Origin: Cloeon dipterum | Lineage: Eukaryota; Arthropoda; Insecta; Ephemeroptera; Baetidae | Assembly: GCF_949628265.1 (NCBI RefSeq) | Contig: NC_088789.1 | Coordinates: 19,337,883 to 19,401,882 of the forward strand | Length of the DNA: 64,000 bases | Reading direction: 5' to 3' | Part shown: positions 5,951 through 64,000 of the stretch, piece after piece | How the letters are laid out: the number at the start of each line of letters is the position of its first letter | Position numbering within the stretch: position 1 is the stretch's first letter | Position numbers and translations under genes: made by a program | The notes under the pieces: generated by a model | Told to the model about the DNA's origin: nothing | The model's input: only the letters and a program-made list of their open reading frames with translations | Database searches by the model: none

Positions 5951-6954
5951 TCATTTCTCTTGAGCTGACGCTGAATTTTCGTCTTTCAAAAGCAAGCGGT
6001 TCACCGACGCCTCCACAAACAAGTGTCTGTGAATAACGTTGCGACGATAGTAATGTACCACATCTGCAATGCCCTTGATTCCGACATTGTGTAGAGCAAT
6101 CTCAGCTTCTTCCTGCAAATAAGACACTGAATTTCTAGTTTTGTAAATAGCTCCACAGGAGCTCACCACGAGGATCGGCGCATTGGAAGCAGCACCGAAA
6201 GATGAAGCTAATGACAGCTGAACTCCTAAGTTCTTGATGAATTTTCCAGCTACGTCCACCAGGCACTCCAACACAGATCTCTTGCATTCTGAGAAATACA
6301 AGATATTGATTAATTTAACTGGATTCCAATATAAAGAGAAAATAGCTTACGGAAGATTTCATTGTGCATGAGAATGACAGAAATTGACTTTCTGAGTACG
6401 AGTCTGGCATCTTCAGGGTTGTCAATGGTAATAGCAGCACTGCCCGAAGATTGGGGAGGCCTAATATATTTTAAAAGTGTTATGGCAAAATTCAATCTCA
6501 TATCTGTCTGGCAATAAACCTTTTGTACTTGGGATGAAGTTCCGAGTTCTCAGAAAAATCTGCAATGATGAATGCAGCATCTCCAGCAATATTAGAGCCA
6601 CCAGAGTTTGAGAGTTTCTCCATCAGCTTTACAGAACTCATGAGATTTTCGTCAATTTCCGAGTCAAGGTCGAACGTACTGTTATTATGAATTAATTAGA
6701 AAATTACAGCCGACAAAAATTATTTTGCTCCATTACGATGTCTTGGTCGACGGGTCATCAGGCAAAAGCACCAACTTTGAAATGCAAGACTGTGTATTTT
6801 CTTTGCTAAGTTGTGTTGGCGTTTTGGACAGGTAGAAAATGTCTTCAATTATTGACTTCGTCGACTTTTCATTGGAGACAATCGGTGTGGCGTCAAACTC
6901 GCCCCAATGCTTTGTGGTTATTTCGTCTTCTTCTTTTCCATCGTTGGTGGCCAT
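5951..6954 (-). CDS. SUPT7L/Spt7-like SAGA (STAGA) subunit with histone fold, copy A
   Basis: Five exons (6737-6954, 6520-6678, 6351-6460, 6167-6288, 5951-6112) join in phase to 256 residues. The N-terminal KHWGEFDATPI resembles the RYWGEIPI start region of human SUPT7L. The core ARLVLRKSISVILMHNEIF, then KRSVLECLVDVAGKFIKNL, then EEAEIALHNVGIKGIADVV matches the SUPT7L bromodomain-associated (BTP) histone fold in order. SUPT7L pairs through this fold with another histone-fold subunit in the SAGA/STAGA coactivator. The start is supported by the Trp-Gly alignment and by an acceptor (TTTTTCAG) just upstream, at 6968-6975, which implies a 5' UTR intron. The last intron (6113-6166) is 54 bp, a multiple of three and free of stops. 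The protein is shorter than the 414-residue human one, mostly at the C-terminus. Confidence 0.75.
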
Positions 6955-7766
6955 CCCTACAGTTCGGCTGAAAAATACCAAATCATTGTAAGTAGATATA
7001 CATAATGATGATTGACTATGCATTTATGTATTGTGCGTTTTCCCTGTTTTCCCAAGCGAACATTTATGTTGTCATTTTCCATTCACACTTTATATGTGTG
7101 TGTGTTATGAAAATAATAAACCATTGTATGGTACATAAAGCTTATCTGAATGGTTATATGTAATTTTAAAAATTCTCATATTATGTAGGTATGTATGTAT
7201 GATATCTCTGAGCACAATTATTTTTAAAAATGTTAAAAACACATTATACATACGCGTCGATTTTTCTGCTCTGAGATCTGACCAGGATCTGACGGAGTCT
7301 TTATGTTTGGACTCGTGCCTTGTGTGTGTTGACCAAACATCCATTAGTCTGGCTCAGGTCTAGGTCTAGCGTCTGTCAGTGTCAGCTGTCGGCTGTCGGT
7401 TCTTGACGCTGTCAGTTTTGGTGTTATGCTCTCACTCTCTTCTCACTTTGTTGTTGCACGATTGACACTATTCACGGGGAGGGGGGGTGAGGAGTCACGT
7501 TTCTCGTTGCAGCAGAGTGAGCTGCTATCGGAATGCAAGCAGCATCAGCTTGATCGATCTTCGGAGCTTATTGTTAGTGAGTGAGCTACACAACACTTGA
7601 GTCCTACACAACACAAAAACCGCAGCACAGCCAGAGCAGTAAGGAGAGGAGAGTATCATCTCTAATCTCCTTCCTACATATGTAATATGTACATACATAC
7701 ATAGCAGTACGTAGGTTACACAGCACAACGTTTTATACAATTAGGGTTCTTTCTCCCATCGAGATT
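6955..7766. promoter_or_regulatory. 5' region of SUPT7L-like A
   Basis: This non-coding stretch lies upstream of the SUPT7L-like start. It includes a likely 5' UTR splice acceptor near 6968, a short TGTGTG run near 7100 and clustered CTGTCAG/CTGTCGG repeats at 7370-7420. The copy B equivalent is nearly identical apart from small indels. Short ORFs here (for example 7525-7740 on the minus strand) look like chance reading frames. Confidence 0.45.
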
Positions 7767-8153
7767 TCACGTGCGCTCCGTGAACCCCCTGAACCTCTTG
7801 TGCAGAGAGAAGTGTCTTGAGTTCTTTCTGGCCGTCAAACTTTCGTTCAAAGCCGACTCATTATCGCACTCTACCGACGGATCACTTAAGAGTTGAACAT
7901 CGGAGCCAAACCACTCCGAAGTAAGAGAACAGGTCAGGAGAAATTTGTGACGGCATGGGAGTTTACTTTCCGCTCGTTTACAAATTTGACAATTGAGAAT
8001 GCTCTCGGATTGCAAGTTACCTCTTAAAATATAAAAATCGGTATTGCTCCAAAGTTCAAGTTGCAATTCTGACTCGTCATCAGAAGCGCAGAGGGACAGA
8101 AGCGCAGACGTTATCATGGAATAATCAGAGTCAAGTTCCTTCTGATTTTCCAT
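7767..8153 (-). CDS. Unrecognised 128-residue ORF, copy A
   Basis: A single open frame starts MENQKELDSDYSM and ends RFRGFTERT. It is acidic and Ser-rich, with a short Cys/His cluster (CQICKRAESKLPCRH) that resembles half of a RING or zinc-binding site but lacks further ligands. The same frame is open over its whole length in copy B (17011-17397). A weak donor near the C-terminus would be in phase with the acceptor upstream of the SUPT7L-like ATG, so a 5' extension of that gene is possible. I prefer a separate ORF because the SUPT7L-like N-terminus already aligns from its own ATG. Function unknown. Confidence 0.4.
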   Translation of the reverse strand: MENQKELDSDYSMITSALLSLCASDDESELQLELWSNTDFYILRGNLQSESILNCQICKRAESKLPCRHKFLLTCSLTSEWFGSDVQLLSDPSVECDNESALNESLTARKNSRHFSLHKRFRGFTERT

Positions 8154-10609
8154 TGTTGTCGATTGCAGAAAGAGTTCGTAGACCACTAAAACAATCAAAT
8201 TCAAGGAACATGGAATTAATTAAATTTTAGGATTCTGAAAAAAATACTTAATATTACAACAGATAAAAACTCATTTTTTTTTCAATTTCTAACAGACATA
8301 ATAAGGGATTAAAGTTGTGCTTCGAATCAGGAAATATTTTTGGCACTGGCGTTTTCAAGTTCTAAATCATATTAATCATAGTTACAATAATTATATCAAT
8401 CGTATAATTAGTAAAATGTTATATCCTAACATTTATTTGGAATTTTTAATTGTATGCCAATCGAAATTCTCATTGTCTGAGTTGGTCTTTATCCCCAAAC
8501 AACAAACACTTTAAAATTATATCTAAATAGTGAAAATAACAACAAAGAAACGAATTTTGCACTACACTTAGACAATATAGTTTGGCTGGAAATTCGATTA
8601 TACCAAGTAACTTAAGATCCAAAAAATTAAATCGTGAGAAAAAATTGCCCGACGCATAAAAATTATTATGCTCTTATAAACATAGCAGATTAAACGGTTA
8701 AGCAGGGAGTTACAAGGTACAATATTTGCTTGAAATTGAATGTCTTAATATGTATTGTGCTTTATTTGATCCCCCTAGTTCGTAACTCGGATAATCATCT
8801 GTTTAAATTCCCCAAATCCCTGCCCCAACAATAAGCGTTTTACTTCCATTCATCGTTTGCTCCCCCTGATGGCTAGGTGCGTGTCACAAGATGAATGGCT
8901 ATTCAATAAAACACCCCTGCTCCGGGAGCAGTAACCAAGTGGAGGTTTCTACCTGGATCGTGCTCCCTCCCCCTCCAATGAGGCACGTGTTATTTAGAGT
9001 CCTTATAAGGACTTGTTATTTTGTTGTTGGGAGCATAAAAGAATGATCTATCTCATTGTCACACCGGGAGTCCATGCAAGTCAGCCCTCTTGCACTTGCA
9101 TCTTTCATTCCGCCATATTTGATATATTTTTAAAACTCAAAGCGTATGCTTGGGATATTTCTAGGGTGCAGGCATACTATTTTTAAAACCAAATTAAGAA
9201 GCTTTTACGTCTTTTAGGCAATATATTTTGAGGTGTGGTAATATATTATGTGCTAAAGAACCATCGTTTTCAATTTAATTTCCACTAATTGCACATTAAT
9301 ATCAAGAAACATATGGCATTATGGAAGTACGAAAATAATTTCAAATTATAATAATTAATTTGTGTAATTATTGTTTTTGCTAAAACGCCATTATATTTGC
9401 AACCACCGAATTCAAGTAAAAACCATTAATTCACAAAAATACTCACAACTAACTAAGGAAACGACGTCAAGTTTTCGATATTTTGGCAGATGAGCAAACG
9501 AAGCTGCAGCCTCTCCCCGACTGAAACATATACTCTGACTGATAAGTGCGATCCGGGCTTAGTGCAACCTGTAAGGTAGCACGCTTATTCTCTCTCCCTG
9601 CACAGCAACCCCCTCTTCAATTTCATTGTGTATGTTTTGTAAACTATTTTACAGGTAGAATTCCCAAAGGAGCTTTGAATGGGTTGTTTGACCACACGTT
9701 TCTCATCCTTTTTCACTCACCAGGGGAAAGAGCATTCGATCATATAACACACACGCGTGTAAAATTATTCTTTGACTGTCAAAAGTAACTTCCATTGCCG
9801 TTTCTAAATTGAGTTCAAAAATCGCATTTTCTCCATTTCATTGTATAGTGAAAGTTCTAGAATGCGTGTGTTTGATTTGATAATTTTTATAACTTGTAAT
9901 TAATAATTTGTTAAATTAGCTCCTCTGAACATCTGAAGTTTCTGAACTCTGGACGATTAATTGATATAAATAATGTACACGGCGATATAGCGCCTGCTTA
10001 TACAGTATATAGTGTCTAGTTGTCTAGTGGCAATGGAAAGTCCAGCGCTACAGAGTCAAGGAGACAATGGGCGCATTGTCGCTACTAATTGTTGCAGACT
10101 TCATAAAGTTATTTTAAAAAAAAAAAAAAATCGGTGAGTATGAATTGTGGCTGAAATAAAATTAAGAACGGTATTGTATGTGTGGGATGCAGAGCTCCTT
10201 TTTAATTGTTAGTTCATTTGTTTTGCCATGCAGTGTTGATTGTTATTAGGCGCTGTTTATTATAAATTAGAAATGAAATTTTGCTTTTTAATGAGAGTAA
10301 CCCTAAGTCTCCTTGTTTTTAATCAGAGTTTGCCGTTATGACCAGTTTTAGACCGCCAAGCGCTTAAACAGCAAAGGACCTGCTGGATCATTCTGTGTAA
10401 TTATTGTACTAATTTTAGTTTTTCTGGATTAAATTCAGATTGATGCCTTGCAAAATTAATTATAAAATGATTTTCAATAAGAATACAGAGTGCTCGCCAC
10501 TTGATTAGCATGCAAACTTTGGAGCCAATTTTCTCAGATATTGAAACGGTGCAAACTGGGAAAATTTTAGCTCCTTCTTTGAGAGGATATATAAATTTAC
10601 TTATTCAAC
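8154..10609. other. Long non-coding stretch in copy A with diverged similarity to copy B
   Basis: I see no gene here. Patches resemble copy B: 9245-9300 with 18905-18960, 9340-9490 with 19140-19300, and 9690-9735 with 19745-19795. The rest does not align by eye, in contrast to the near identity just to the left. An A-run lies at 10114-10128. Confidence 0.5.
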
Positions 10610-12989: not shown

Positions 12990-14773
12990 AGCAGGATTAG
13001 TCTTGAGAACTGTTCAATCTGGCACATCATTTCAATTTATGAATCCAACTGATAATGAAATTACCTCATTAATAGCAAGTTCCGGAAGGTGTCTAGATTT
13101 AATTTTCTGTAATAACGCGCCACATTTATTTGCCTGAAGATTGAAAGACAAAAACAGCATTAAATCAAAAGATTTCTCAAACACTATGTTTGCCTCCTAA
13201 ATCAAGTTGTCGGTAACCCAAGAGCTGAACACCAGTCGCAGGGAAAGCAGAATAAGCCACGCAGCGCCGTTTATCAATGTTGTCACTTGCCAGGCACCGT
13301 CATCTAAATCAGGGCTCAGGGCACTGCTCACCATGAAGTAGAGCAGGAAAATTATTGCCAAGGACGAGTAGACTATCTGAGCTAGAAGAACACCTACATG
13401 TTTAATGAAGGTTAGGGAATTTTCATAATTTCACTATAAGACAAATTATTGCTGGAATATGCTTTGATGGTTTCCATGATTGGTTTTTTCAGACGGTAGA
13501 ATTTTTCCAAAATAACCAAACACTGCAGATCAAAATCCCAATAAAGCAGCATTTCCAAGTTGTCCACGTACAACATTCATTTTTATCACAAAATTTAATC
13601 GTATTAAATAATGGTTGAAAAGGTCAATAATTATGTGGTTATTATTTCCGGGAAAATACACTTTGAAGTCTATTTTTTTAATGTCCGCCCTCATGAAAAA
13701 ACCCTGCAGGATGCTAAATTTAAATTTGAGAGTTTTTTGTTTATAAATATAACACTGTAAAATAGTTATTTTCCCTATTTTTATGTGTTTCAACAGGTTT
13801 CAAAAACTAAAAGGTTGGTAATATCCGAAATAAATTGAGTCTTAATTTTTGTCAATAGCACTGTCTGCCTTTTTTTGTGAAACCCTTTTCCAAATTTCTC
13901 TCTTTTTAGTGATTAATCATAAATAATAGAGTTTGGGAAGAATTAAAAATACTTTCAAACTAATTGTAATCACGATAATATCAATTTTTTTGTCAATTTT
14001 CCCGAAAAATGTCTACTTTACCTTGAAAGGTTTCTCCTACTGAGCGAAAATGATGCACAATTTTCAGATGAAATTTTCGCAAGTCTCGTAGTTCCCTAGC
14101 TGCGTCTTTAACGATCTGCTTTTTCTGGTTCTGTCTAATGAATATCAGGTTCCCGTTGCAAGAAGAAAAGTTATTTCGACAGTCCAGCATGCAAGAAATA
14201 AACTGTTGTTCTAGCAGGGCGCCAATGAGCAGGCAGAGCGTATGACTGCTGCACTTACGATACTCAGGTACGGTGTCGAGTAGAGCAAAATTGAGAATTC
14301 GTTGATGATAGCCAGAGGTACAATAAATATTATCGCCAAGTACTGTACTGCTTCGAGTTTTTTAGATTTTGAATTCTACACGATGTCCTGATTATTATAT
14401 ATTTATTTTAATTTAATATAAATTTTACCTGAGAATTAGCCATGAGGAGAGCAATTTTCCTCAGCATTTTAATACTGTTCGATTTCATCGTGACAAAATG
14501 TGCGTAGAAAGTTGCCAGAATCGATAGAAGAATGTTGTACATAAAAGGCAGATTTTCGATTGAGTGCTCTGAAAGTTCTAGAAAATTGCTTCTACAAAAT
14601 GATCTAATAAAATTAAGACCTTTACCGCTGCAGTATACAATCAAGCTTAAAGCACAGCAAATGAAAACAAGCAAATTGACACAGGAAAAATACTTTTTGA
14701 ACAGAGCAGTGGACATCGCCCATAAACTTGAATTTTGTTGCTGCATGGTGGGATGCCTGTTAAAATATAACAT
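12990..14773 (-). pseudogene. Gustatory receptor copy B, pseudogene
   Basis: This is the paralogue of the intact receptor at 3550-5509. Exon copies are 14626-14773, 14429-14577, 14022-14375, 13065-13393 and a truncated piece starting at 13018. Three independent lesions are visible. One base is missing in exon 3 near 14245 (354 bp against 355). In exon 4 a Gln codon has become TAG at 13197-13199. The duplication breakpoint at about 12990 removes most of exon 5 and all of exon 6, including the TYxxxxxQF signature. It cannot encode a full receptor. Confidence 0.9.
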
Positions 14774-15204
14774 TATTTCTATTGAGACACTGTATTTATT
14801 TGCCAAATGGAGTTCTAGTGATAATGCAAGTTTTTGTTGGCATTCAAGATACAAATCAATTTTAAGATGACAACTCAAATTATAGCGATCTATACAAATT
14901 ATATCCTTTTGAGTTTAAACTGGCCTGCTTCTCTTTTATCACAATCAGAACAGTTTGGCTTTTGAATATTAATAGCTTCATAATCCTACTATGGCTGACA
15001 AGTTAATTTGAATTGATTTTCAGCATGATAATTCAATACATTAGCTGTTTGCAGACTAACCAAACATTCAATTAATTATTCAGACCATCAAGTTATTCTG
15101 TTCAAGTTTTATTCAAATGAGACTTGAACTATTGCACTTTCAGAGTTGATTTTTAACATCTATAATCACAGCAGAAGCATTTTATTAACTGTCTCTTGTC
15201 TTCA

Positions 15205-16207
15205 TCATTTCTCTTGAGCTGACGCTGAATTTTCGTCTTTCGAAAGCAAGCGGTTCACCGACGCCTCCACAAACAAGTGTCTGTGAATGACGTTACGACG
15301 ATAGTAATGTACCACATCTGCAATGCCCTTGATTCCGACATTGTGTAGAGCAATCTCAGCTTCTTCCTGCAAATAAGACACTGAATTTCTAGTTTTGTAA
15401 ATAGCTCCACAGAGCTCACCACGAGGATCGGCGCATTGGAAGCAGCACCGAAAGATGAAGCTAATGACAGCTGAACTCCCAAGTTCTTGATGAATTTTCC
15501 AGCTACGTCCACCAGGCACTCCAACACAGATCTCTTGCATTCTGAGAAATACAAGATATTGATTAATTTAACTGGATTCCAATATAAAGAGAAAATAGCT
15601 TACGGAAGATTTCATTGTGCATGAGAATGACAGAAATTGACTTTCTGAGTACGAGTCTGGCATCTTCAGGGTTGTCAATGGTAATAGCAGCACTGCCCGA
15701 AGATTGGGGAGGCCTAATATATTTTAAAAGTGTTATGGCAAAATTCAATCTCATATCTGTCTGGCAATAAACCTTTTGTACTTGGGATGAAGTTCAGAGT
15801 TCTCAGAAAAATCTGCAATGATGAATGCAGCATCTCCAGCAATATTAGAGCCACCAGAGTTTGAGAGTTTCTCCATCAGCTTTACAGAACTCATGAGATT
15901 TTCGTCAATTTCCGAGTCAAGGTCGAACGTACTGTTATTATGAATTAATTAGAAAATTACAGCCGACAAAAATTATTTTGCTCCATTACGATGTCTTGGT
16001 CGACGGGTCATCAGGCAAAAGCACCAACTTTGAAATGCAAGACTGTGTATTTTCTTTGCTAAGTTGTGTTGGCGTTTTGGACAGGTAGAAAATGTCTTCA
16101 ATTATTGACTTCGTCGACTTTTCATTGGAGACAATCGGTGTGGCGTCAAACTCGCCCCAATGCTTTGTGGTTATTTCGTCTTCTTCTTTTCCATCGTTGG
16201 TGGCCAT
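15205..16207 (-). CDS. SUPT7L/Spt7-like SAGA subunit, copy B
   Basis: Five exons (15990-16207, 15773-15931, 15604-15713, 15420-15541, 15205-15366) reproduce copy A with all splice sites intact and again give 256 residues. The one amino-acid change noticed is Leu to Ser in the C-terminal NRLLxKDEN segment. The last intron is 53 bp, one base shorter than in copy A, so its retention would shift the frame here but not in A. Both copies therefore look able to make protein. Role as for copy A: a histone-fold subunit of the SAGA/STAGA coactivator. Confidence 0.75.
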
Positions 16208-17010
16208 CCCTACAGTTCGGCTGAAAAATACCAAATCATTGTAAGTAGATATACATAATGATGATTGACTATGCATTTATGTATTGTGCGTTTTCCCTGT
16301 TTTCCCAAGCGAACATTTATGTTGTCATTTTCCATTCACACTTTATATGTGTGTGTTATGAAAATAATAAACCATTGTATGGTACATAAAGCTTATCTGA
16401 ATGGTTATATGTAATTTTAAAAATTCTCATATTATGTAGGTATGTATGTATTATGATATCTCTGAGCACAATTATTTTTAAAAATGTTAAAAACACATAT
16501 TATACATACGCGTCGATTTCTCTGCTCTGAGATCTGACGGAGTCTTTATGTTTGGACTCGTGCCTTGTGTGTGTTGACCAAACATCCATTAGTCTGGCTC
16601 AGGTCTAGGTCTAGCGTCTGTCAGTGTCAGCTGTGGGCTGTCGGTTCTTGACGCGGTCAGTTTTGGTGTTATGCTCTCACTCTCTTCTCACTTTGTTGTT
16701 GCACGATTGACACTATTCACGGGGAGGGGGGTGAGGAGTCACGTTTCTCGTTGCAGCAGAGTGAGCTGCTATCGGAATGCAAGCAGCATCAGCTTGATCG
16801 ATCTTCGGAGCTTATTGTTAGTGAGTGAGCTACACAACACTTGAGTCCTACACAACACAAAAACCGCAGCACAGCCAGAGCAGTAAGGAGAGGAGAGTAT
16901 CATCTCTAATCTCCTTCCTACATATGTAATATGTACATACATACATAGCAGTACGTAGGTTACACAGCACAACGTTTTATACAATTAGGGTTCTTTCTCC
17001 CATCGAGATT
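16208..17010. promoter_or_regulatory. 5' region of SUPT7L-like B
   Basis: This is the nearly identical counterpart of 6955-7766, with small indels near 16440-16540 and 16720. It is non-coding as far as I can see. Confidence 0.4.
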
Positions 17011-17397
17011 TCACGTGCGCTCCGTGAACCCCCTGAACCTCTTGTTCAGAGAGAAGTGTCTTGAGTTCTTTCTGGCCGTCAAACTTTCGTTCAAAGCCGA
17101 CTCATTATCGCACTCTACCGACGGATCACTTAAGAGTTGAACATCAGAGCCAAACCACTCCGAAGTAAGAGAACAGGTCAGGAGAAATTTGTGACGGCAT
17201 GGGAGTTTACTTTCCGCTCGTTTACAAATTTGACAATTGAGAATGCTCTCGGATTGCAAGTTACCTCTTAAAATATAAAAATCGGTATTGCTCCAAAGTT
17301 CAAGTTGCAATTCTGACTCGTCATCAGAAGCGCAGAGGGACAGAAGTGCAGAGGTCAGCATAGAATAATCAGAGTCAAGTTCCTTCTGATTTTCCAT
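17011..17397 (-). CDS. Unrecognised 128-residue ORF, copy B
   Basis: The open frame is the same length as copy A, starting MENQKELDSDYSML. Two substitutions relative to A were noticed within it: Ile to Leu near the N-terminus and His to Asn near the C-terminus. The CQICKR Cys cluster is kept. No frameshift or stop is present, unlike the neighbouring receptor copy. Function unknown. Confidence 0.4.
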   Translation of the reverse strand: MENQKELDSDYSMLTSALLSLCASDDESELQLELWSNTDFYILRGNLQSESILNCQICKRAESKLPCRHKFLLTCSLTSEWFGSDVQLLSDPSVECDNESALNESLTARKNSRHFSLNKRFRGFTERT

Positions 17398-20300
17398 TGT
17401 TGTTGATTGCAGAAAAATATCGTAGATCACTAAAACAATCAAATTCAAGGAACATGGAATTAATTAAATTTTAGGATTCTGAAAAAATACGTAATAATAA
17501 TACAACACAGATAAAAACTCAAATGTTTTCACTCTCCAACGCACATATTAAGGGTTTAAAATTGGACAAGCGAGAACCTGGTTCATAGCAAACCGCGAGT
17601 GTTGGAACTGTCGGCGACAGTACTGTGTACAGAGCGGCTACCTTAGGGATGAGGAGAGGGAGAACGAGAGGTCATTGTTGGCCGGTCCAGCAGGAGGGTC
17701 CCGTCGCGAGTATGTGTGTGCGAGCGCTCCCCTCCGTGAGGGGAGGTTTTATCACCTGACTCTCCCTCTACTCTCCCCTTTGGGCGCCCAATTATTTTAC
17801 ATTGATTATCCTCGTTGCAAATAATATTGATCGTATTCTCGTCAGGTAAAACCCTAGCGCGGATTACTGCACCGTTTTTTGGCTCGACCTTGAAACACTA
17901 TGTACAATGCAAGCCTTAACGCCCATCGTTGCCATTTTTTGTCAAGGTTGTGAGGCCGTAAATCACTCTCCTGACAGTGCTTGACAATAATGTATTGACT
18001 GGCGCGATGCTGGGGGTGCGTGAAAAATCACGAGAGAACCGCTCTAGGTTTCTCATCCACAAAAATCGAAAATCAAGCGTGGGAAAATTTGTGCCGTACA
18101 CCAGTATATTCTAAATTAAAATCGATTTTAAAAAGTTAGCAATCAACCATACGAAACGATAATTGTGTGTACATTTATTTATAATTTTAAAATGTTGTGA
18201 AATGGCAAAATCTGAACCGTAAAAATATCAGGAAGGAACTGATATTCTTGCGTTCGAAGTTTAAATAAAAAATTTAAAATATAAATATTTCGATTAAAAT
18301 TTTCTTTTGACAGTGGTAATTTCCAGATCAATGAAAGCAATACATTTTTACTAGATAAACAACTGTCGTATTTTTAGTTGATTTAATATTTTAAATGTTG
18401 TAAAAATGGTGTTTTAATTAATATCTCGGTTAATAATTAGTTTAGCGGAAAATTGTTCACGACCAATTAATTTCTGAACTAAGAATTTAACTATATTTTT
18501 TCAAGTCCAAAGTGTTGACGCCGATTACAAACGAAAAAAATAGATTGGCGCAAAATAAAAGGAAGCACTATATACTCTTGAATGAATAGACGCGAGCTTG
18601 TCCAAGAAAGAGCAAAGTTTAGAGGAGAGAATGTTCCTTTCGTGATTTTTCACGGACCACCTGCATCGCGTCAAGCAAACATCATTGTCAAGCACACAAA
18701 AGCAGTCGGCTGCATAGAAAAAGTGACCTGAAAGTTACTATTTAAAATGTGCTGCGTTGCAAGCTCGTCTCTGTGTCACAGTTCAAGCGGGTGAATACTG
18801 ACTCGCGGCAATCGTGCCTAAAGTAAAACTTTAAGAATTTAATTAACTAAGAGCAGACTCGATTGTCATGTTATTATCTTGATATCAACACACATTATAC
18901 GGGCAAAAGAACCATCGTTTTCAATTTAATTTCCACCTAATTGAGCATTAATATCAAACAAACAAACTAACCAATGCAGTTATCAATAGCTAAGCAGTAT
19001 TCTCGATTTAGAATTTTCGCAATTCGATGTTTAAAAAGTCGAATTATTTATCGGTAGTTTTACGCGGTAAAAATTGGGCCGTTTGAATTTAGAGTCCGAT
19101 ATAACATGCATGGCAACACGAAAAAAATTTACAAACCATCCAAATTATAATAGTTAATTTTTTGTGTAATTATTGTTTTTGTTAAAACGCTATAATATGT
19201 TTGCGACCGCTGAGTTAAAAAAAAACAGTTAATTCACAAAAATACTCACGTAAAATGAAAACGGCGTGAAGTTTTTGATATTTCGTCAGGCGAGCAAACG
19301 ACAAACGACAGAGCTGGCCGGTTCTTCCCAACAGAATGAAATGCTTTAACTGAAGAATGTGTGTTAGAGCTAAAGGTGCGTATATAGTATAGTTCCCAGC
19401 GTATCCTCCTCTCCTGTCTCCCTACTCAGGAGCTTTCCATTCAATTTTTTCGTGAATGGGACCTTCAGCGCTCAAGGACATACCGCTTTACCGCAGCGCT
19501 ATTCCCCGATATACTCAAGCAGCAGCTGTAGAATGGGTTTTAAATTGTTTGTGACCGTCTAGTAGTGTATAGTTAATTCGAACCGGCGCATCGCGATGAC
19601 TTAGTCGGTCTGTTTCATCGGTTTTCCGCTAGCGTTGTAGCCTTTTTTCATCTGTAAATACATGACCTGTACATTATAATGTATTTTTTACTTTTAGATG
19701 AAAATAAATAAGTATGAATTTGTACGGGTAGAATTTGCAAATTGAATAGTTGTGAACCACGTTTCTCATCCCTTTTCACTCCCCCGATCAGGAGAAAAAG
19801 CTTTTCAAAGTCAACCTTTTCCAACGGAAAAGGTGACTTGGATGATTTTTATTTTTGGGGGTTCACGGCTGAAATGTAGCCCGTGAAATTCTGAACAAGC
19901 ACATCAAGTTTCACAGGTGCAATCGCGATAGTTTCGCTGCAATCCGAATTTTAATATTAAAAACCTGCTCGAGGCCGCTTGACCGCGCATATTATAGACT
20001 ATGAGCAGCGAGTTCGCCTCTCGTTCGTAAGGTAAATTTTTCTCGCATTTCACTTGCTTAGATCAAGAGGGCTTAGTGTAGACCAATGAAGGTTGAAATC
20101 GACCTTCAGGGCCTGTCCCTGACGTGACCCTGAGTGAAGAACTTCGTAAATTTCTAATTTCATCGAACTTCGTTTTCACCGCTGTGAAGAAGTATCGTTT
20201 CATATAAGTTTGAGATTTCAAAATTTTGACCATTTGACCTCAAATATGTGATCCAGTTAATAGGTACAAGTAAATAAATTTTAACGAAATACATGTGTAC

Positions 20301-40600: not shown

Positions 40601-42259
40601 ACAATTTAAATTTGTCGTAAGGAAACTACTCCCTTTTATTTCCGAATTAAACACACCATACTAGATAATTAAATTGAAAACTTCCATTAAAAATATTAAT
40701 TTCCTGAACAGAAATGCACATTAATGATTACAATTGTTAATAATAAATTAAATACCAGAGAAAGGCGAGTGAAGCCATCTTGAAGCAGAATTTCAGCAGC
40801 CTGTCTGTCCATGAAGGAGAGGCACATTTGGACCAGTGACCGCATCTGGTACAGTGTGGCAGCGTCAAAGATCATGCAGGCGTTGCGCACGTTCAAGATC
40901 TGCCGGAGGTAGTCGGCGAGTGAGTGCTCCAGCTCCTCGAAGCGGTACGTGTTGGCCAGGCCAAGCACCTCCAGCACCGTCTCCTCCTTCATGGCTGACA
41001 GAGACATTTGGCCCGTGTAGATGTAGCGCAGAAGGGCTTTGAACGCGTCGCAGTTGGAGCACATGAGCTCCACCTCGGCTTGCTGGGACTCTTTCATGCC
41101 ACCGTACAACAGAGCCCTGAAGAGGGAAAATAACTTTGATTATATTTTTTAGTGAAAAAAAGTCTCTGGCCTATTTTAAGAGTAGATGTAAAAATACAGC
41201 AGTTCAAAATGATATGAAGGGTCAGAAACGTATTATTCAAGGATTTAAAACAATAATTAAATTAAAAACATCAGTCTTGGTAGTTTGAATGTCCTTAGAT
41301 TTAGAAAAAATACCATTTATCATGTATGTGCCAAACACAATTCTACAAGGAATGGTGAAAAATGAAGATTTTTCTACAATAAAAATAATTTACGGAGCAT
41401 GTGAGAATCATGCTACCATGCTACAAACGTTGAGCTTAAAACCAACAAATTTTCAATGGAAAAATATTCAAATTCACAGCCGTAGTCATGATTAAACCAA
41501 TCAACTGTTGAAAATATTATTTAACGCTTTCTCAATTTGAAAGAATTAAAACCACAGTTCACAATTACATATTAAATACACAAAAATTAATCACTGTTAT
41601 CTTTGCAAGAATACAGCTAGATAGGACTGTGTATAAAAAATTATTTGAAATTTATTTTAAAAAAAAATCAATCCCCTATTGGAAAGTCGTGGCACTATTT
41701 TTTCAACAAAATATTTATGATTATAATAATATAATTATCTTCTATTCATAAGTACGAGTTTAAGAAAATGAGCAAAAGCTTAAGTGTTTTGGGAAGACAG
41801 TGGGATTTTTGAAAGAAATTCGAGTTTATGTGAAAACATCATTAAAGATAATACATACCATTTATCGCAAAATACTCTTTGTATCACATTTCACATTTAA
41901 ATGAAACTAGCGATGAATTAAAAAAAATAATGGTGGGTATTTTTATCAGGAAAAACTTTTAAGAATCTACAGGGCCATTAATTGATAACTTTTTAGCTTC
42001 CCCTTCAAATCAGATTAGATAAAAAATAACGATTTAAAATTGAATGTGACGATCAAGGTGAATTTTAGCACCTGAAATATTCGCTTCTGGCTGCCAGGAT
42101 GACTTTGTGCGCGTGGAACTTGTCAAGGCCATTGATGTTGAGGACCACGTCGCTGTATTCATCATTCAGGTACAGGGCACCGATGTTCGCAGACAGGGCC
42201 TGAATGTGTTCGACCTCGCCGTTGGGCGAGTTGGGCCCCAGTCGGTGATGGCTGCTCAT
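37673..42259 (-). CDS. BTBD9: BTBD9, BTB-BACK protein with paired F5/8-like domains
   Basis: Eight exons join in phase to 603 residues (human about 612): 42072-42259, 40756-41116, 40293-40557, 39640-39859, 39025-39254, 38778-38967, 37955-38141 and 37673-37843. The BTB domain (FHAHKVILAARSEYFR, ALLYGGMKES, LRYIYTG) is followed by a BACK domain (VRPTGLINPDAILDAI). Two discoidin/F5-8-like repeats follow, with near-identical matches to vertebrate BTBD9 such as SVIEGVSRSRNALLNGDTK and YDWDSGYTCHQLGSGAIVVQ. BTBD9 is a likely CUL3 adaptor linked to sleep and dopamine regulation in flies. No lesions are seen. The start codon is 399 bp from a large foldback transposon. Confidence 0.96.
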
Positions 42260-42657
42260 TTTCCAGCCCTCTTCGCAACGCAAAATCGCCTCTTAAAATG
42301 AGCAGTGGCAGGTGATTATTATTAGTGATGCTGAAAGTAATCATCTGTGTGGAGATGAACTAGGTCTTGGGTGTTACAAAAATAAAATCAATGTGGGCGT
42401 GGGCACAATGTGTTGACTGGGTCAAGAAGGTAAATTCTGGATAGAATATCCATATTTTCTAAAAAAAGCATGCAGAAAACCTGCTTATAAAGAAAACTCA
42501 CCGATTTTTAGTTTCCTCAAACCACTAAAGAGTGTGCAAATTCAACCAGGTATTTCTGCCGACTGACAAAAATGTTTTTGCCATTGAAACTTGCGGCCTG
42601 CCCGAAGTAAACTCAAGGTGAATTGCGAAGTATAAATAAACAAGAGAGAAGAGACAG
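42260..42657. promoter_or_regulatory. BTBD9 upstream region
   Basis: About 400 bp between the BTBD9 start codon and the left end of the foldback element. It should contain the 5' UTR and core promoter unless a 5' exon lies beyond the transposon. No motif stands out with confidence. The last nine bases (42649-42657) are the left copy of the target duplication. Confidence 0.45.
42649..42657. other. Left 9-bp target-site duplication
   Basis: AAGAGACAG directly abuts the left terminal inverted repeat and is repeated exactly at 52089-52097. Confidence 0.85.
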
Positions 42658-45255
42658 ACGATCGTGAAGATAGCCGTTCGAGTTAGCCGCTCGCGAGAAG
42701 ATAGCCGCTTTTTCAGCAATGCTGCCAACCAAAAATTTCTAACGCAAAAAGAGGGTCGTATGCATAAATTTAAGGGATGGGGGTGAATCGGATACTGCCC
42801 AAGTGAAGTAAAATGCAACTCTTATTCGTAAAATAAAAATTTGAGCAAAAGAAAAGGGTGCAAATTAAGGGCTTAAAATTCGAGGGGTGGTTCCTGAAGG
42901 GAGTTCAATCTTGGAACCCTTTGCAATTTATTTAAACCGATGAAAACAATATTTCCTGAGATTTTGAATTAATTTCAACGTTCCTAACCTGAGAAAATTA
43001 AATAAAACTCCGAAAAAGGGTCAATTTTGAGGGTTAAAAATTCAAGGGGTGGCTCCTGAAGGGAGTTCGATCTCCAAACCCTTGCCACTTCCTTCAAACT
43101 AATAAATGCAATATTTCCTGCAAGTTTGAATGAATTTCACCGTTCCTAACTTGAGAAAATTAATTAAAACTCCGGAAAAGGGTCAATTTTGAGGGTTAAA
43201 AATTCGAGGGGTGGCTCCTGAAGGGAGTTCGATCTCCAAACCCTTTTTAATTTATTTAAACCGATAAAAGCAATATTTCCTGCGAGTTTGAATAATTTTC
43301 ACCGTTCCTAACTCGAGAAAATTAATTAAAACTCCGGAAAAGGGTCAATTTTGAGGGTTAAAAATTCGATGGGTGGCTCCTGAAGGGAGTTCGATCTCCA
43401 AACCCTTTTTAATTTATTTAAACCGATAAAAGCAATATTTCCTGCGAGTTTGAATAATTTTCACCGTTCCTAACTCGAGAAAATTAATTAAAACTCCGGA
43501 AAAGAGTCAATTTTGAGGGTTAAAAATTCGAGGAGTGTCTCCTGAAGAGAGTTCGATCTCCAAACCCTTGCCACTTCCTTTACACTAATAAATTCTATAT
43601 TTCTTGCGAGTTTGAATGAATTTCACCGTTCCTAACTCGAGAAAATTAATTAAAACTCCGGAAAAGGGTCAATTTTGAGGGTTAAAAATTCGAGGGGTGG
43701 CTCCTGAAGGGAGTTCGATCTCCAAACCCTTTTTAATTTATTTAAACCGATAAAAGCAATATTTCCTGCGAGTTTGAATAATTTTTACCGTTCCTAACTC
43801 GAGAAAATTAATTAAAACTCCGGAAAAGGGTCAATTTTGAGGGTTAAAAATTCGAGGGGTGGCTCCTGAAGGGAGTTCGATCTCCAAACCCTTTTGAATT
43901 TATTTAAACCGATAAAAGCAATATTTCCTGCGAGTTTGAATAATTTTTACCGTTCCTAACTCGAGAAAATTAATTAAAACTCCGGAAAAGGGTCAATTTT
44001 GAGGGTTAAAAATTCGAGGGGTGGCTCCTGAAGGGAGTTCGATCTCCAAACCCTTTTGAATTTATTTAAACCGATAAAAGCAATATTTCCTGCGAGTTTG
44101 AATAATTTTCACCGTTCCTAACTCGAGAAAATTAATTAAAACTCCGGAAAAGAGTCAATTTTGAGGATTAAAAATTCGAGGGGTGGCTCCTGAGGGGAGT
44201 TCGATCTCCAAACCCTTGCCACTTCCTTTAGACTAATAAATGCAATATTTCTTGCGAGTTTGAATGAATTTCACCGTTCCTAACTCGAGAAAATTAATTA
44301 AAACTCCGGAAAAGGGTCAATTTTGAGGGTTAAAAATTCGAGGAGTGTCTCCTGAAGGGAGTTCGATCTCCAAACCCTTGCCACTTCCTTTAGACTAATA
44401 AATGCTATATTTCCTGCGAATTTGAATAATTTTCACCGTTCCTAACTCGAGAAAATTAATTAAAACTCCGGAAAAGGGTCAATTTTGAGGGTTAAAAATT
44501 CGATGGGTGGCTCCTGAAGGGAGTTCGATCTCCAAACCCTTTTTAATTTATTTAAACCGATAAAAGCAATATTTCCTGCGAATTTGAATAATTTTCACCG
44601 TTCCTTACTCGAGAAAATTAATTAAAACTCCGGAAAAGAGTCAATTTTGAGGGTTAAAAATTCGAGGAGTGTCTCCTGAAGAGAGTTCGATCTCCAAACC
44701 CTTGCCACTTCCTTTAGACTAATAAATGCAATATTTCTTGTGAGTTTGAATGAATTTCACCGTTCCTAACTCGAGAAAATTAATTAAAACTCCGGAAAAG
44801 GGTCAATTTTGAGGGTTAAAAATTCGAGGAGTGTCTCCTGAAGAGAGTTCGATCTCCAAACCCTTGCCACTTCCTTTAGACTAATAAATGCAATATTTCT
44901 TGTGAGTTTGAATGAATTTCACCGTTCCTAACTCGAGAAAATTAATTAAAACTCCGGAAAAGGGTCAATTTTGAGGGTTAAAAATTCGAGGGGTGGCTCC
45001 TGAAGGGAGTTCGATCTCCAAACCCTTTTTAATTTATTTAAACCGATAAAAGCAATATTTCCTGCGAGTTTGAATAATTTTCACCGTTCCTAACTCGAGA
45101 AAATTAATTAAAACTCCGGAAAAGGGTCAATTTTGAGGGTTAAAAATTCGATGGGTGGCTCCTGAAGGGAGTTCGATCTCTAACCTCTACTCAATTCATT
45201 TAGACTAATTAATACAATATTTCCTTGCGAGTTTTAACCAATTTAATCGTTCCTA
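42658..45255. repeat. Left inverted arm with array of 162-bp units
   Basis: After a unique outer segment of about 220 bp, 15 units recur at exactly 162-bp steps. The anchor TTCGATCTCC appears near 43066, 43228, 43390, 43552, 43714, 43876, 44038 and so on to 45172, with a degenerate copy near 42904. Two unit subtypes mix: one with CCACTTCCTTTAGACTAATA, the other with AATTTATTTAAACCGATAAA. Each unit contains CTCGAG, TTAATTAA and TCCGGA. Confidence 0.93.
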
Positions 45256-48200
45256 ACTCGAGAAAATAAATAATTGGCTAAAAAAGCGATTAAATGAAGT
45301 TTTAAAAATTTATAGAAAAAAGATAACAATATATATCTCTGAAACATAATATAGTGTTTAATTGTGTACATTTTTATTGTTTACGAGGGTATACAAATAG
45401 TATATGTTTTACTACATTAATATTATAGTCTGAAATCGAGATATTCAATCAATTTAAAAATTTGTTAGAGGAAACAAATGTTTTCAGCGCCTTTTTGAAC
45501 TCTAGAAATGAACTTCATTTCGCACCTGCTCTACGAGGTTGTTTTTTATGTCAAAGTATTAAGGAACGACCCTGTAAACAGGGGGCAACGTGCACCTGAT
45601 ATATATTGAATCATATTAAAAAAAAATTAATACGGGATCAGGTGCGGGCTTGGTGGTTAATATTGCAGAAAGTGCCAACATGGAAAAACTCCTTCAACGG
45701 GCTACTAATTGTAAGCCACCCTTCAGAAGATGCGCAGGGGTGCGCAGAGTACCGGTAAAGAATTGGCAAGTTACGGCCGCAAATTCAAAGGTTGAAGCAA
45801 ATTTCAAGTGTGTGCGATTAACAAAGGAGTGTCAAAGCAATGGGAGGTAAATTTGAGCAGTTGGGAGATGTAATACTGGCTACCCAATGTCAGACATGGC
45901 AAAAAGGTGGTTAGTTTATAGTGACTCGAAATGTCGAAATGCTCAAATTTCTCAACGGGCTTGGAGGCGAACCGGCGCCAACTCGCTACTTGCTGGTTTG
46001 CACCTTTTTCCAGCATGCGTGGCTTCACGGGACGATGTCTAGCGTTTCAATGCAGTCCTCGGTGCGAAGGCAAGTGGCCCTTCAGTGGGCTGGGTCCCTG
46101 TGCGGCCTGGTGCGCCCATGTTATCCGTTCGCGCTGTTATTGGGACCCGGGTTTCAGCATTCGTGCTAGTGCAGTGCGCGCCCTTCCCGCTCCTCGGACA
46201 GGGATAAAAAGAGCAAAAAAATCAATTCATCTTGTGACGTTTTTTGATAAATTATTGGCTCCTACATATAAAATAAAGGATCGGTTTACACTTTTGCACA
46301 GCCTTCCTTAACCAAAAGTAAGAGCCAAAAGTTCAGTATATGTGATATCATTTTCGTAAGCGTGTATACCGGATATACAGCTTTGCCTAATGTTCTTCCA
46401 ACCTGGCGGAGGTCTGTTTTTGCACGTTCAAAATGTTCATCGCGTTGTGCAAGGTTTTCGCAATTTTTATAGGTAGATGCGACTTGTCAGCTTTTTCCAC
46501 TTGACTTTAACCAAAAGGATCACCCTTTACCGACATGCCAGTCTGCGTCCGTAGCCTTTTACTTGATTTATTTTAAAATTATCGTACTTTTCTTTAAATC
46601 AGCAGTGCGACGTCACAACTTAAATTATTACGTGGCTCGCAAGCAACTCCAAATTCCCGGGGAACCATCGTTTTTGCGGCCGTAGCTTGTCCGAATATAA
46701 CGCTCTTACAATTAGAGTTGTGCGAAAACCGCCTGCAATTTTGGCTACAGAGATGCGACTTGATGGCGGTGTTTCGGGATGTTACACTTATGATATGTAA
46801 TGACGTGAATTTTAAATATTATGGGACAATCCAGCGGTTCATTGCGCGGGTCCAAATTAAGCAAAAAATCATTGCGGGAGCTCACCTTCCACAGTGCGGT
46901 TCTAAATTCTGAATAAATCGCGGAAACCGAAAAATGTTGCTGTGGCGCTGCGCGGCGCCGCACCGTTGCGGCTCTCTGCCAGAGCCAAATCCACTTAAAG
47001 GCGCCAATAATTAGCGATGATACCGACAAAACCACTTAAAAACAGTTCTCAGGTGGTGCGACCGGTTGGTGACAGGCGAGGGTGAATAATCGTCGCAGTG
47101 TATCGTCAAATGTGACAGAAATCGCAGGAAAAAGCATTAAGAACGCGCCGCAGATAGGATTTCCGGTCGAGTTACCCTGAAAAAGGTCGTTTTGGTATTC
47201 CAGGTAAAAGTCGGAAAAAGACCTATCCGATGAGGGGTCGTGGTCGACGATGGGACTAAGGGCAGAATTTAAACACAAATCAACCAAAAATGGTGTGCTT
47301 GCGCGCAGGCCGTAAACACGCGCCCTTGTGCACGGCACACTACAGCTGCACCCTGCACATCATCTCCGCGAGCGCAAAACAAAACAAAAAAAAACACACA
47401 AAATTAATTTTAGCAAAGTTCCAATGATTGAACTGTAAATTTAAGTCACTTGTTACTCCCCCAGTGTGATTCAATGGCCAAAACGGAAACAAATTGGCCA
47501 AGGAGGTCAGCGGCGCCCATGTGCTGCTCGTTGGTGTGGAGAGCAATGCCGACTTTTAAAAAATCGCCATATTTCGCTTATGTGGGATAGAAAAATACTA
47601 ACTAGGTTTCGCATCATTGTTCGTGTATTAGAAGACGATTTGGTAGTAATCGTAGCCGAATTATAATTAGTACTAAAAATTCCCATAATTTCCCATGTTA
47701 TCCATATTATGGGAAAACGAAAAGATAACATTTTTCAAACTTCAAAACTTCACTTGTTCTAGGATTTTGATTTGATATGACAGCTCATATTTAGTCTCAA
47801 ATAGATTCCAGATCTATTCCTCATCGACTCCAAATCTATTTTTTAAATTTTCTTCCTGGACCCAAGATATTGCCGCCGGAAATAGGAAGGTGTCTAAGCC
47901 TGAAAATACAAAAAAATAGTTTTCTTTTTTTTCTATGAGCTCTAAAAATCTGAAAATTGGTTTCTAGACAGGCCCGGACTGGCACCATTTTTTACCGGGG
48001 ACTGTTGATTTTCGCGGCCCACCGAGCCACCGCGGCCCACTAACCCCCCCCCCCCCCCTCCCCGAACTTTTATAATTTTCAAATGAAATAAAAGGTAGTT
48101 TCCTCGGTGGATAGAGAGCAGGGCTGCAAAAGACCGGCATTTAAAAAAAACAGTGCAGTGGTAAGAACGTTATTTTTTTCAATTTTTTACCATTTTCTTC

Positions 48201-49155
48201 CAGGCCATGTTTGCATTTCCGTTTTCAATAATTTTCTAATTATTTGCTGATGACCTCGACCTCAAAATTTTTTTAGGGAACTTTTTGGAGAAATTGAGGC
48301 AGCAAATATGGCAATTTAAAAGAAAAAAATGTGTACAGTTGAGGAAGATTAGACCACTTTCCACCGAAAATCTTAGATGTCCATAAGGGGAAAATGGAAT
48401 AAATTCATTTCTTGAATTTCTTGCGCAATAAATTGGTAAAAATTGGGTGGTAGAAACCGTTAAAAACCAGTGGTTGAAAAAATCGGGTGGTGTTATTAAT
48501 ACAAATACAACCCTGATAGCGAGCTGTTCTTTTATCCGCATTTCTACAGAAATAATGTCCTGCTCAGCCCCTAGTCGGGAGAGGAAGCTCATGAATTAGG
48601 ACTAGAACCAGTAGCCGAAACTAGTTGAGTAGGATATTTTTTCTGTTGTGTAGAAATACGGAAAAATATAAAGCTCGCTATTCATCGAGGAAGCTGCCAT
48701 TTATTTTCAACAGATTTTTCATTATACGGATTATGCGTATTTTAGTAGATTAGTATATTTATACGACATCAGAAATGTTTGGAGTGACGTCAAATACATC
48801 AGTAATCGACCTACTCTGGCCTCATTATTTTGGAAAACTGGGAAAATTTGACAGTTGAATATGGTTGCGCTACTAAAATCTGTGTGTTCCTCAAAATTCA
48901 CTCTTGTCAGAGGTTCAGAACAATAAATATTTTTTTTCAGATTAATATTACCTTTTTTCCCTTTTGAACAAATCAGTTCGACATTAATTTTTTTCTTGAT
49001 AATTTTTTAAATATTTGACTTCTAAATAAAAATCGAAACGTATACTAGAGCACTTACATCAGCCAGCCTCGCCAAATCTTGGCCATGCAGGCGCTTTGGT
49101 TCTAGCTCGCCAGGCACGCCAGCCGCCGGTCAAAATTTTGAAAATGGAAAAAATA
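45256..49155. other. Central region of the foldback element
   Basis: About 3.9 kb without a recognisable gene. It contains short random-looking ORFs on both strands, a 15-base C run at 48044-48058 and a GC-richer stretch at 46600-47350. No DDE-type transposase, zinc finger or helicase motif could be read. Confidence 0.55.
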
Positions 49156-52088
49156 AGTTTTAATTTTCTCGAGTTAGGAACGGTGAAAATTATTCAAATT
49201 CGCAGGAAATATAGCATTTATTAGTCTAAAGGAAGTGGCAAGGGTTTGGAGATCGAACTCCCTTCAGGAGACACTCCTCGAATTTTTAACCCTCAAAATT
49301 GACTTTTTTCCGGAGTTTTAATTAATTTTCTCGAGTTAGGAACGGTGAAATTGGATCAAACTCGCAGGAAATATTGCTTTTATCGGTTTAAATTAATTAA
49401 AAAGGGTTTGGAGATCGAACTCCCTTCAGGAGCAACCCCTCGAATTTTTACCCTCAAAATTGACCCTTTTCCGGAGTTTTAATTAATTTTCTCGAGTTAG
49501 GAACGGTGAAAATTATTCAAACTCGCAGGAAATATTGCATTTATTAGTCTAAAGGAAGTGGCAAGGGTTTGGAGATCGAACTCCCTTCAGGAGACACTCC
49601 TCGAATTTTTAACCCTCAAAATTGACTTTTTTCCGGAGTTTTAATTAATTTTCTCGAGTTAGGAACGGTGAAATTAGATCAAACTCGCAGGAAATATTGC
49701 TTTTATTGGTTTAAATTAATTAAAAAGGGTTTGGAGATCGAACTCCCTTCAGGAGCAACCCCTCGAATTTTTACCCTCAAAATTGACCCTTTTTCGGAGT
49801 TTTAATTAATTTTCTCGAGTTAGGAACGGTGAAATTCATTCAAACTCGCAGGAAATATTGCTTTTATCGGTTTAAATAAATTAAAAAGGGTTTGGAGATC
49901 GAACTCCCTTCAGGAGCAACCCCTCGAATTTTTACCCTCAAAATTGACCCTTTTCCGGAGTTTTAATTAATTTTCTCGAGTTAGGAACGGTGAAAATTAT
50001 TCAAACTCGCAGGAAATATTGCTTTTATCGGTTTAAATAAATTAAAAAGGGTTTGGAGATCGAACTCCCTTCAGGAGCAACCCCTCGAATTTTTACCCTC
50101 AAAATTGACCCTTTTCCGGAGTTTTAATTAATTTTCTCGAGTTAGGAACGGTGAAAATTATTCAAACTCGCAGGAAATATTGCTTTTATCGGTTTAAATA
50201 AATTAAAAAGGGTTTGGAGATCGAACTCCCTTCAGGAGCAACCCCTCGAATTTTTACCCTCAAAATTGACCCTTTTCCGGAGTTTTAATTAATTTTCTCG
50301 AGTTAGGAACGGTGAAAATTATTCAAATTCGCAGGAAATATAGCATTTATTAGTCTAAAGGAAGTGGCAAGGGTTTGGAGATCGAACTCCCTTCAGGAGA
50401 CACTCCTCGAATTTTTAACCCTCAAAATTGACTTTTTTCCGGAGTTTTAATTAATTTTCTCGAGTTAGGAACGGTGAAATTGGATCAAACTCGCAGGAAA
50501 TATTGCTTTTATCGGTTTAAATTAATTAAAAAGGGTTTGGAGATCGAACTCCCTTCAGGTGACACTCCTCGAATTTTTAACCCTCAAAATTGACTTTTTT
50601 CCGGAGTTTTAATTAATTTTCTCGAGTTACGAACGGTGAAATTGGATCAAACTCGCAGGAAATATTGCTTTTATTGGTTTAAATTAATTAAAAAGGGTTT
50701 GGAGATCGAACTCCCTTCAGGAGCAACCCCTCGAATTTTTACCCTCAAAATTGACCCTTTTTCGGAGTTTTAATTAATTTTCTCGAGTTAGGAACGGTGA
50801 AATTCATTCAAACTCGCAAGAAATATTGCATTTATTAGTCTAAAGGAAGTGGCAAGGGTTTGGAGATCGAACTCCCTTCAGGAGACACTCCTCGAATTTT
50901 TAACCCTCAAAATTGACTTTTTTCCGGAGTTTTAATTAATTTTCTCGAGTTAGGAACGGTGAAATTCATTCAAACTCGCAGGAAATATTGCTTTTATTGG
51001 TTTAAATTAATTAAAAAGGGTTTGGAGATCGAACTCCCTTCAGGAGCAACCCCTCGAATTTTTACCCTCAAAATTGACCCTTTTCCGGAGTTTTAATTAA
51101 TTTTCTCGAGTTAGGAACGGTGAAATTCATTCAAACTCGCAGGAAATATTGCTTTTATCGGTTTAAATAAATTAAAAAGGGTTTGGAGATCGAACTCCCT
51201 TCAGGAGACACTCCTCGAATTTTTAACCCTCAAAATTGACTTTTTTCCGGAGTTTTAATTAATTTTCTCAAGTTAGGAACGGTGAAATTCATTCAAACTC
51301 GCAGGAAATATTGCTTTTATTGGTTTAAATTAATTAAAAAGGGTTTGGAGATCGAACTCCCTTCAGGAGCAACCCCTCGAATTTTTAACCCTCAAAATTG
51401 ACCCTTTTCCGGAGTTTTAATTAATTTTCTCGAGTTAGGAACGTTGAAAATTATTCAAACTCTCAGGAAATATTGCTTTTATGGGTTTAAATAAATTAAA
51501 AAGGGTTTCGAGATCGAACTCCCTTCAGGAGCCACCCCTCGAATTTTTAACCCTCAAAATTGACCCTTTTCCGGAGTTTTAATTAATTTTCTCGAGTTAG
51601 GAACGGTGAAAATTATTCAAACTCGCAGGAAATATTGCTTTTATCGGTTTAAATAAATTAAAAAGGGTTTCGAGATCGAACTCCCTTCAGGAGCCACCCC
51701 TCGAATTTTTAACCCTCAAAATTGACTTTTTTCCGGAGTTTTAATTAATTTTCTCGAGTTAGGAACGGTGAAAATTATTCAAACTCGCAGGAAATATTGC
51801 TTTTATCGGTTTAAATAAATTAAAAAGGGTTTGGAGATCGAACTCCCTTCAGGAACCACCCCTTGAATTTTAAGCCCTTAATTTGCACCCTTTTCTTTTG
51901 CTCAAATTTTTATTTTACGAATAAGAGTTGCATTTTACTTCACTTGGGCAGTATCCGATTCACCCCCATCCCTTAAATTTATGCGTACGACCCTCTTTTT
52001 GTTTTAGAAATTTTAGGTTGGCAGCATTGCTGAAAAAGCGGCTATCTTCTCGCGAGCGGCTAACTCGAGCGGCCAACTTCACATTCGT
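49156..52088. repeat. Right inverted arm with array of 161-162-bp units
   Basis: About 17 units in reverse orientation to the left arm. The anchor GATCGAACTCCC recurs near 49251, 49413, 49574, 49736, 49897, 50058, 50219, 50380 and on to 51836, in steps of 161 or 162. The same two subtypes alternate. The outer segment (51845-52088) mirrors the left arm. Confidence 0.93.
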
Positions 52089-52097
52089 AAGAGACAG
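52089..52097. other. Right 9-bp target-site duplication
   Basis: AAGAGACAG, an exact copy of 42649-42657, immediately follows the right terminal inverted repeat. Confidence 0.85.

Positions 52098-55550: not shown

Positions 55551-64000
<8,450 letters not shown>

Follow-up and report, generated by a model that had tools for sequence, protein, structure and literature searches.

The FB/NOF elements of Drosophila melanogaster have long tandem-repeat arms and make a 9-bp target duplication, as does the element described here, from which they differ in unit lengths and termini. Galileo, a Drosophila element that duplicates 7 bp of its target, differs from it in carrying a P-type transposase. The long arms of Galileo, like those studied here, contain internal tandem repeats, which are reported to hold extra transposase binding sites (PMC3688188). 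The Foldback shape is described as arising with different classes of transposase (PMC3169594, PMC4079207). Within the groups of Mutator-like elements (MULEs) shown in PMC6446971, target duplications measure 9-11 bp, and for Rehavkus, a Mutator relative of arthropods and annelids, that source lists a duplication of 9 bp and a PHD finger, along with a minisatellite located near one end.

The window analysed here is a stretch of 64,000 nucleotides of Cloeon dipterum (C4:19337883-19401882), and the genome searched with it comprises 190 Mb in 10 contigs. We are confident that the window holds a non-autonomous Foldback-type cut-and-paste transposon that would be moved in trans, most likely by a DDE enzyme of the Mutator superfamily (Table 1).

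Structure, copies and empty sites

An initial annotation had assigned a 9.4-kb foldback transposon to 42649..52097. An element of that size does lie there, although the span takes in the target duplication: the element proper occupies 42658-52088, and the 9-bp duplication AAGAGACAG, confirmed as exact, stands directly outside each end. The arms are indeed built from tandem units, and as inverted repeats they match at 92.3% along 2.6 kb (positions 1-2614 of the element with 9431-6825). An outer domain of about 190 bp begins with ACGATCGTGAAG at end A and with ACGAATGTGAAG at end B. These ends had been thought to match from the first base; the first four bases are identical, but mismatches at positions 5, 6, 13, 15 and 20 make five within the first 23. 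The differences between ends A and B are constant across all five young copies of the family (first 60 bp), and nine of the 11 two-ended copies show ACGAATG at one end and ACGATCG or ACGAGCG at the other, with C4f and C3d deviating. As read from the sequence, TAGCCG occurs three times within about 50 bp inside end A, and one of the three corresponding motifs at end B is TGGCCG.

The description of the centre as non-coding was upheld by Pfam, which gave no match in nine of the 10 distinct frames that run 100 aa or more from stop to stop in six centres (a 103-aa C3c frame was left out). A tblastn comparison of frames from four of nine MULE loci with the 15 elements analysed gave only one 17-residue chance match, none of the copies examined showed a transposase, and no host-gene capture was seen in the centre among the best 40 of 4134 candidates scored. 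Apart from the dispersed repeats listed in Table 1, the centre is found again in the five copies and also close to C4:33.1 and C4:33.4 Mb, likewise among the best 40 of 4134 candidates. An Rfam scan of the whole window returned nothing at gathering scores.

The element lies about 375 bp upstream of a frame with a BTB domain start (42065-42283, minus strand), beyond which are found a BTB/BACK frame and then a frame whose F5/8 C-type match is sub-threshold; the opposite flank carries a frame in which WD40/neurobeachin matches stay sub-threshold, and another that has a BEACH domain. Elsewhere in the window, a direct duplication of about 4.6 kb (3735-8317 and 12991-17564, 96.7% identity) repeats a 145-aa open frame (7767-8204 and 17011-17448), and an AG dinucleotide repeat of 21 copies occupies 63587-63627.

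Table 1. Features of the element in window coordinates, and related loci in contig coordinates
Feature	Position	Strand	Remarks
Left target-site duplication AAGAGACAG	42649..42657	.	identical to 52089-52097; present once at two paralogous empty sites
Arm A outer domain	42658..42850	+	terminus ACGATCGTGAAG, followed by three TAGCCG motifs; alignment to end B and four further copies
Arm A array	42851..45271	+	14.9 units of 162 bp; Tandem Repeats Finder
Centre, 3.9 kb, without recognisable gene	45272..49159	.	99.6-99.9% identity among five copies
Dispersed repeat of ~0.4 kb inside centre	45825..46221	.	88-92% to the other genomic copies listed (best 40 of 4134 candidates)
Centre segment of 1.12 kb	46321..47438	.	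inverted duplicate present in copies C3a, C4b and C2
Dispersed repeat of 1.16 kb inside centre	47969..49130	.	about 80-90% to many genomic places (best 40 of 4134 candidates)
Arm B array	49160..51895	-	16.9 units of 162 bp (Tandem Repeats Finder, unit typing); 323-bp period too
Arm B outer domain	51896..52088	-	terminus ACGAATGTGAAG; alignment
Right target-site duplication AAGAGACAG	52089..52097	.	exact match to left copy
Short end pair	C2:14171384-14172197		
Five-copy MULE family L039-L043	C1:23.19 Mb; C3:2.30, 18.64, 34.59, 35.14 Mb
Two-copy MULE family m44 (L044, L045, L047-L050)	C2:35601001-35612626; twin C4:8055860-8067617

Other copies with the same termini, which the initial annotation had proposed seeking, do occur in the genome: the outer 77 bp matched 35 places (all candidates scored), and the outer 252 bp at least 67 places (40 of 55 first-look candidates scored). 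Pairing of the 35 end matches by hand gave 14 head-to-head pairs and seven lone ends, one of which (C3:10167169), followed 6 kb inward, is a relic of C3c type. An additional pair, C4e (C4:32842597-32850863), was found with the 252-bp query and not with the 77-bp query, and 15 elements were analysed, the window copy included. Two recognisable termini are present in 11 of these elements; seven of the 11 (the window copy, C3a, C1, C4b, C2, C4e and C3c) are flanked by an exact 9-bp duplication, each different from the others. Against the transposon reading, the duplications of the remaining four are inexact (C4d, 7 of 9 positions; C4f, 6 of 9; C3d, 2 of 9; C5, 1 of 9), as would be expected if these copies are older or rearranged. 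Judged by the terminal motif, one terminus is missing from C3b, C5b and C2b, and C4c is one-ended. As a control, left and right flanks were combined across 10 of the 11 two-ended copies (C3d left out): none of 90 mismatched pairs matched, the best agreeing at 5 of 9 positions; given seven exact duplications in 11, chance is excluded as their source. The seven exact duplications agree in having a G or C at positions 3 and 9 and an A or T at position 4, a pattern that may be due to chance in so small a sample.

Empty sites, also proposed as a check, were sought in the genome with queries in which the sequences on either side of each of the seven exact copies had been joined and the element omitted. 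Two places on C4, at 30593418 (87%) and 30620726 (89%), read across the target of the window copy, and both of these paralogous sites hold the target once, as AAGAGACCAG, with no arm sequence. To the extent covered by the other copies and these paralogous sites, neither refuting condition named in the initial annotation was encountered. As a counterpoint, the two paralogues are only 87-89% similar and have small indels beside the target. The joined flanks of C4e match C3c without interruption at 82% over 136 bp, where the outer domain meets the first unit, and match further C3c units at 70-82%; C4e therefore appears to be inserted in an arm of C3c type. The locus L021 (C4:32842397-32851063) corresponds to C4e, a copy that is nearly one-armed: 48 units run in one orientation, and its 9-bp duplication is exact. 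Overall, long inverted repeats of tandem units, shared termini, target duplications with empty sites, and variability of both units and middle were all found in this family, in keeping with its earlier assignment to the Foldback elements.

Array turnover among recently moved copies

Five long copies (the window copy, C3a, C1, C4b and C2) sit on four contigs, and pairwise comparison of their shared 3.9-kb centre, over about 3,875 sites, shows 1-5 substitutions (0.026-0.129%) plus some indels. Centres that differ by only 0.03-0.13% argue that these copies moved recently, which bears out the recent insertion earlier surmised from the intact target duplication. With insect substitutions accumulating at about 3e-9 per site and generation, their divergence corresponds to a time of the order of 10^4 to 10^5 generations. 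The arrays of the same copies contain 14.9, 17.9, 28.9, 31.9 and 35.9 units in arm A and 14.1, 16.9, 17.2, 20.8 and 36.2 units in arm B, a variation of up to about 2.5-fold in number, and the order of units varies as well. Near-identical centres combined with such differences in unit number and order indicate that the arrays change faster than point mutations accumulate.

Typing of 174 units, with those whose anchor was missed being skipped, resolved 64 distinct sequences in nine clusters. The A arms of all five copies have in common an outer order ADAA and the inner junction, and their differences lie between these; the B arms have little common order beyond the first unit or two, and a 323-bp period is seen in those of the window copy, C4b and C2. 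C3a, C4b and C2 contain an extra block of about 2.8 kb, set one unit deep into the B array from its inner edge, in which the 1.12-kb centre segment comes first, in inverted orientation; in C3a and C4b the block also shows as a spacing in the unit typing. This block is absent from the window copy and C1, having either been lost from them through the array or arrived later. C2 carries an additional insert of 2.3 kb.

In the diverged copies C5 and C4d the arms meet with almost no centre between them. Units resemble those of the window copy at 86-92% in C5, about 80% in C4d and C4e, and 62% in C3c, and the period of 161-162 bp is retained in the long arrays of the family down to that level of about 62% identity (one short C5 array has a period of 159 bp). 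Adjacent C3c units are 100% identical at the place sampled. Since the diverged units are homologous, and neighbours within C3c identical, the arrays are evidently old in the family and have been homogenised within copies. When the genome was queried with the 162-bp unit, at least 499 matches were obtained in 31 candidate places. The five young copies provide a natural clock for the expansion, shrinkage and homogenisation of Foldback arms, whose turnover has been proposed as a step that seeds satellite DNA (PMC4079207).

Arrays of near-identical units extending over 2-6 kb are hard to assemble, and their unit counts come from the assembly, so that the length differences among young copies could be assembly errors; the A arms of all five copies nevertheless keep the outer ADAA order and the inner junction, with changes confined between them, and we consider such errors an improbable source of the differences, this argument being weak for the B arms, with their scant common order. 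The arm arrays are moreover satellite-like and differ between copies, as might be expected if the structure were a satellite or a segmental inverted duplication and not a transposon. Against this stand the common termini at unrelated sites, the seven different 9-bp duplications and the paralogous empty sites; the duplications and empty sites effectively rule out such an origin, to which we attach almost no probability.

MULE loci and the transposase

The profiles PF10551 and PF21056 each detect the same nine MULE loci, and a protein search gave 12 matches in those nine. The initial annotation had proposed a search for an autonomous relative with a Mutator-like transposase. None with the termini of the window element was found at the nine loci: the ACGA ends of the family are absent from all of them (end profile applied to 10-16 kb each; best E = 2), and the loci were rejected as autonomous partners on this ground. 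Although some of the 31 ends cut automatically for this profile were off register (C3b_L among others), it still recovered the known ends. Three of the seven lone ends were followed about 6 kb inward in search of an autonomous copy, and two of these (C3:10167169 and C5:24598405) gave no MULE protein match among the matches listed. No MULE gene was found between ACGA ends in the 190-Mb genome.

Two families among the nine loci are themselves tandem-armed. The five copies of L039-L043 are 99.6-99.9% identical over their main aligned pieces and were probably active recently; they contain 172-174-bp tandem units in arms of differing lengths, as well as 43-44-bp units near one end. Their one resolved end, set where two copies part, is GGGTATAG (GGGT), and a second frame has a PHD match just below the Pfam cut-off. 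In the m44 family, the C2 copy has arms of 2,463 bp that are 100% identical and contain 173-bp and 44-bp tandem units; the pair has GGGT termini and 9-bp duplications, AACTAAAAT and AAACAAAAA, read by eye, and its transposase domain is split over separate open frames. Both GGGT-ended families have Rehavkus-like features. Neither of the two single MULE loci (C3:5.46 Mb, C5:0.97 Mb) showed terminal arms in a low-stringency self-comparison of the surrounding 10 kb. Two-unit samples of the ACGA-ended family and of the two GGGT-ended families gave no alignment with one another. As tandem-armed MULEs with 9-bp duplications (two copies checked) are present, this design goes with MULE transposases in the genome at hand. 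An arthropod MULE survey gives inverted repeats of 13-1193 bp (PMC13359780), a range that is exceeded by the 2.6-2.9-kb arms of the window element and by the 2.5-kb arms of m44.

The 9-bp duplication, of a length typical of the Mutator superfamily, together with the architecture of the element and the analogy with Tm1 and Tetris, makes membership of that superfamily likely. A transposase supplied in trans, most probably a DDE enzyme of this kind, would recognise the ends, ACGA..GTGAAG, together with the TAGCCG motifs repeated a short way in, excise the element and reinsert it where a staggered cut of 9 bp is made. By analogy with Galileo, the 162-bp units may act as extra binding sites for the enzyme. 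As an old and homologous arm component, the arrays would gain, lose and reorder units through unequal exchange, slippage or template switching, and be homogenised copy by copy.

Merlin-like transposases also make 9-bp duplications, and a non-Mutator enzyme of such a type could have moved the family, its Foldback shape then being a case of convergence like that of Galileo (P superfamily). The absence of an ACGA-ended element from the nine MULE loci, termini unlike the GGGT ends of the two MULE families, and the occurrence of the Foldback shape with several transposase classes (PMC3169594, PMC4079207) all speak for such an enzyme, which we nevertheless judge unlikely: all seven exact duplications are of 9 bp, the length described for Tm1, Rehavkus and several MULE groups, and tandem-armed MULEs inhabit the same genome. 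Cross-mobilisation by the Rehavkus-like GGGT-ended MULEs, one family of which has five near-identical copies, gains some credit from their recency, their similar design and the 9-bp duplications of the m44 pair. Their terminal sequences differ, however, the outer domain matches the MULE loci at chance level, and the unit samples do not align, which leaves this a rather remote prospect. We give similarly little credence to a third independent Foldback lineage, beside the two tandem-armed MULE families, moved by an undescribed transposase. The arm units of the three families have lengths of 161-162, 173 and 172-174 bp without detectable homology; were three lineages indeed involved, this would imply a convergent constraint on the length of Foldback arm units, for example a nucleosome-sized spacing of transposase sites, and unit turnover tied to transposition. 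Mobilisation in trans by a Mutator-superfamily enzyme is the reading we prefer, and the missing transposase poses a concrete question, for which the tandem-armed MULEs of the same genome offer a comparison.

Comparison with Rehavkus, Tetris and Tm1

The suspicion that the family had not been described before was supported, in that no description of it was found in the literature searched; repeat-library sequences were not part of the comparison. Rehavkus, as portrayed in PMC6446971, resembles it in the 9-bp duplication and in the minisatellite that it carries near one end, and Rehavkus-like elements share its genome. Rehavkus differs in possessing a PHD finger and a transposase, neither of which was matched in the nine centre frames scanned of the 10 that reach 100 aa, and the Rehavkus-like elements of this genome have GGGT termini, whereas the family described here has ACGA termini and arrays in both arms.

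Tetris (DAIBAM), reported from D. virilis and D. americana of the Drosophila virilis group, resembles the family in being a non-autonomous Foldback element with an outer flanking domain and internal tandem units (TIR-220); its account likewise gives a variable non-coding middle and duplications of 8-10 bp, and reports no autonomous copy (PMC4079207). By that description, its unit measures about 220 bp, as against 162 bp here. Tm1 of root-knot nematodes is described with inverted repeats that are composite and Foldback-like, duplications of 9 bp, and short motifs that differ between its two ends, in the manner of the A and B ends reported here (PMC3169594). It differs in its redundant units of about 14 bp and in one copy that encodes a Phantom-type transposase, of which none was seen in the present copies; and, unlike the family analysed here, it is characterized as having no present activity and no pair of identical elements (PMC3169594). 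The ACGA-ended elements are thus best viewed as a new family of a known kind, whose design, compared by description only, is close to those of Tetris and Tm1.
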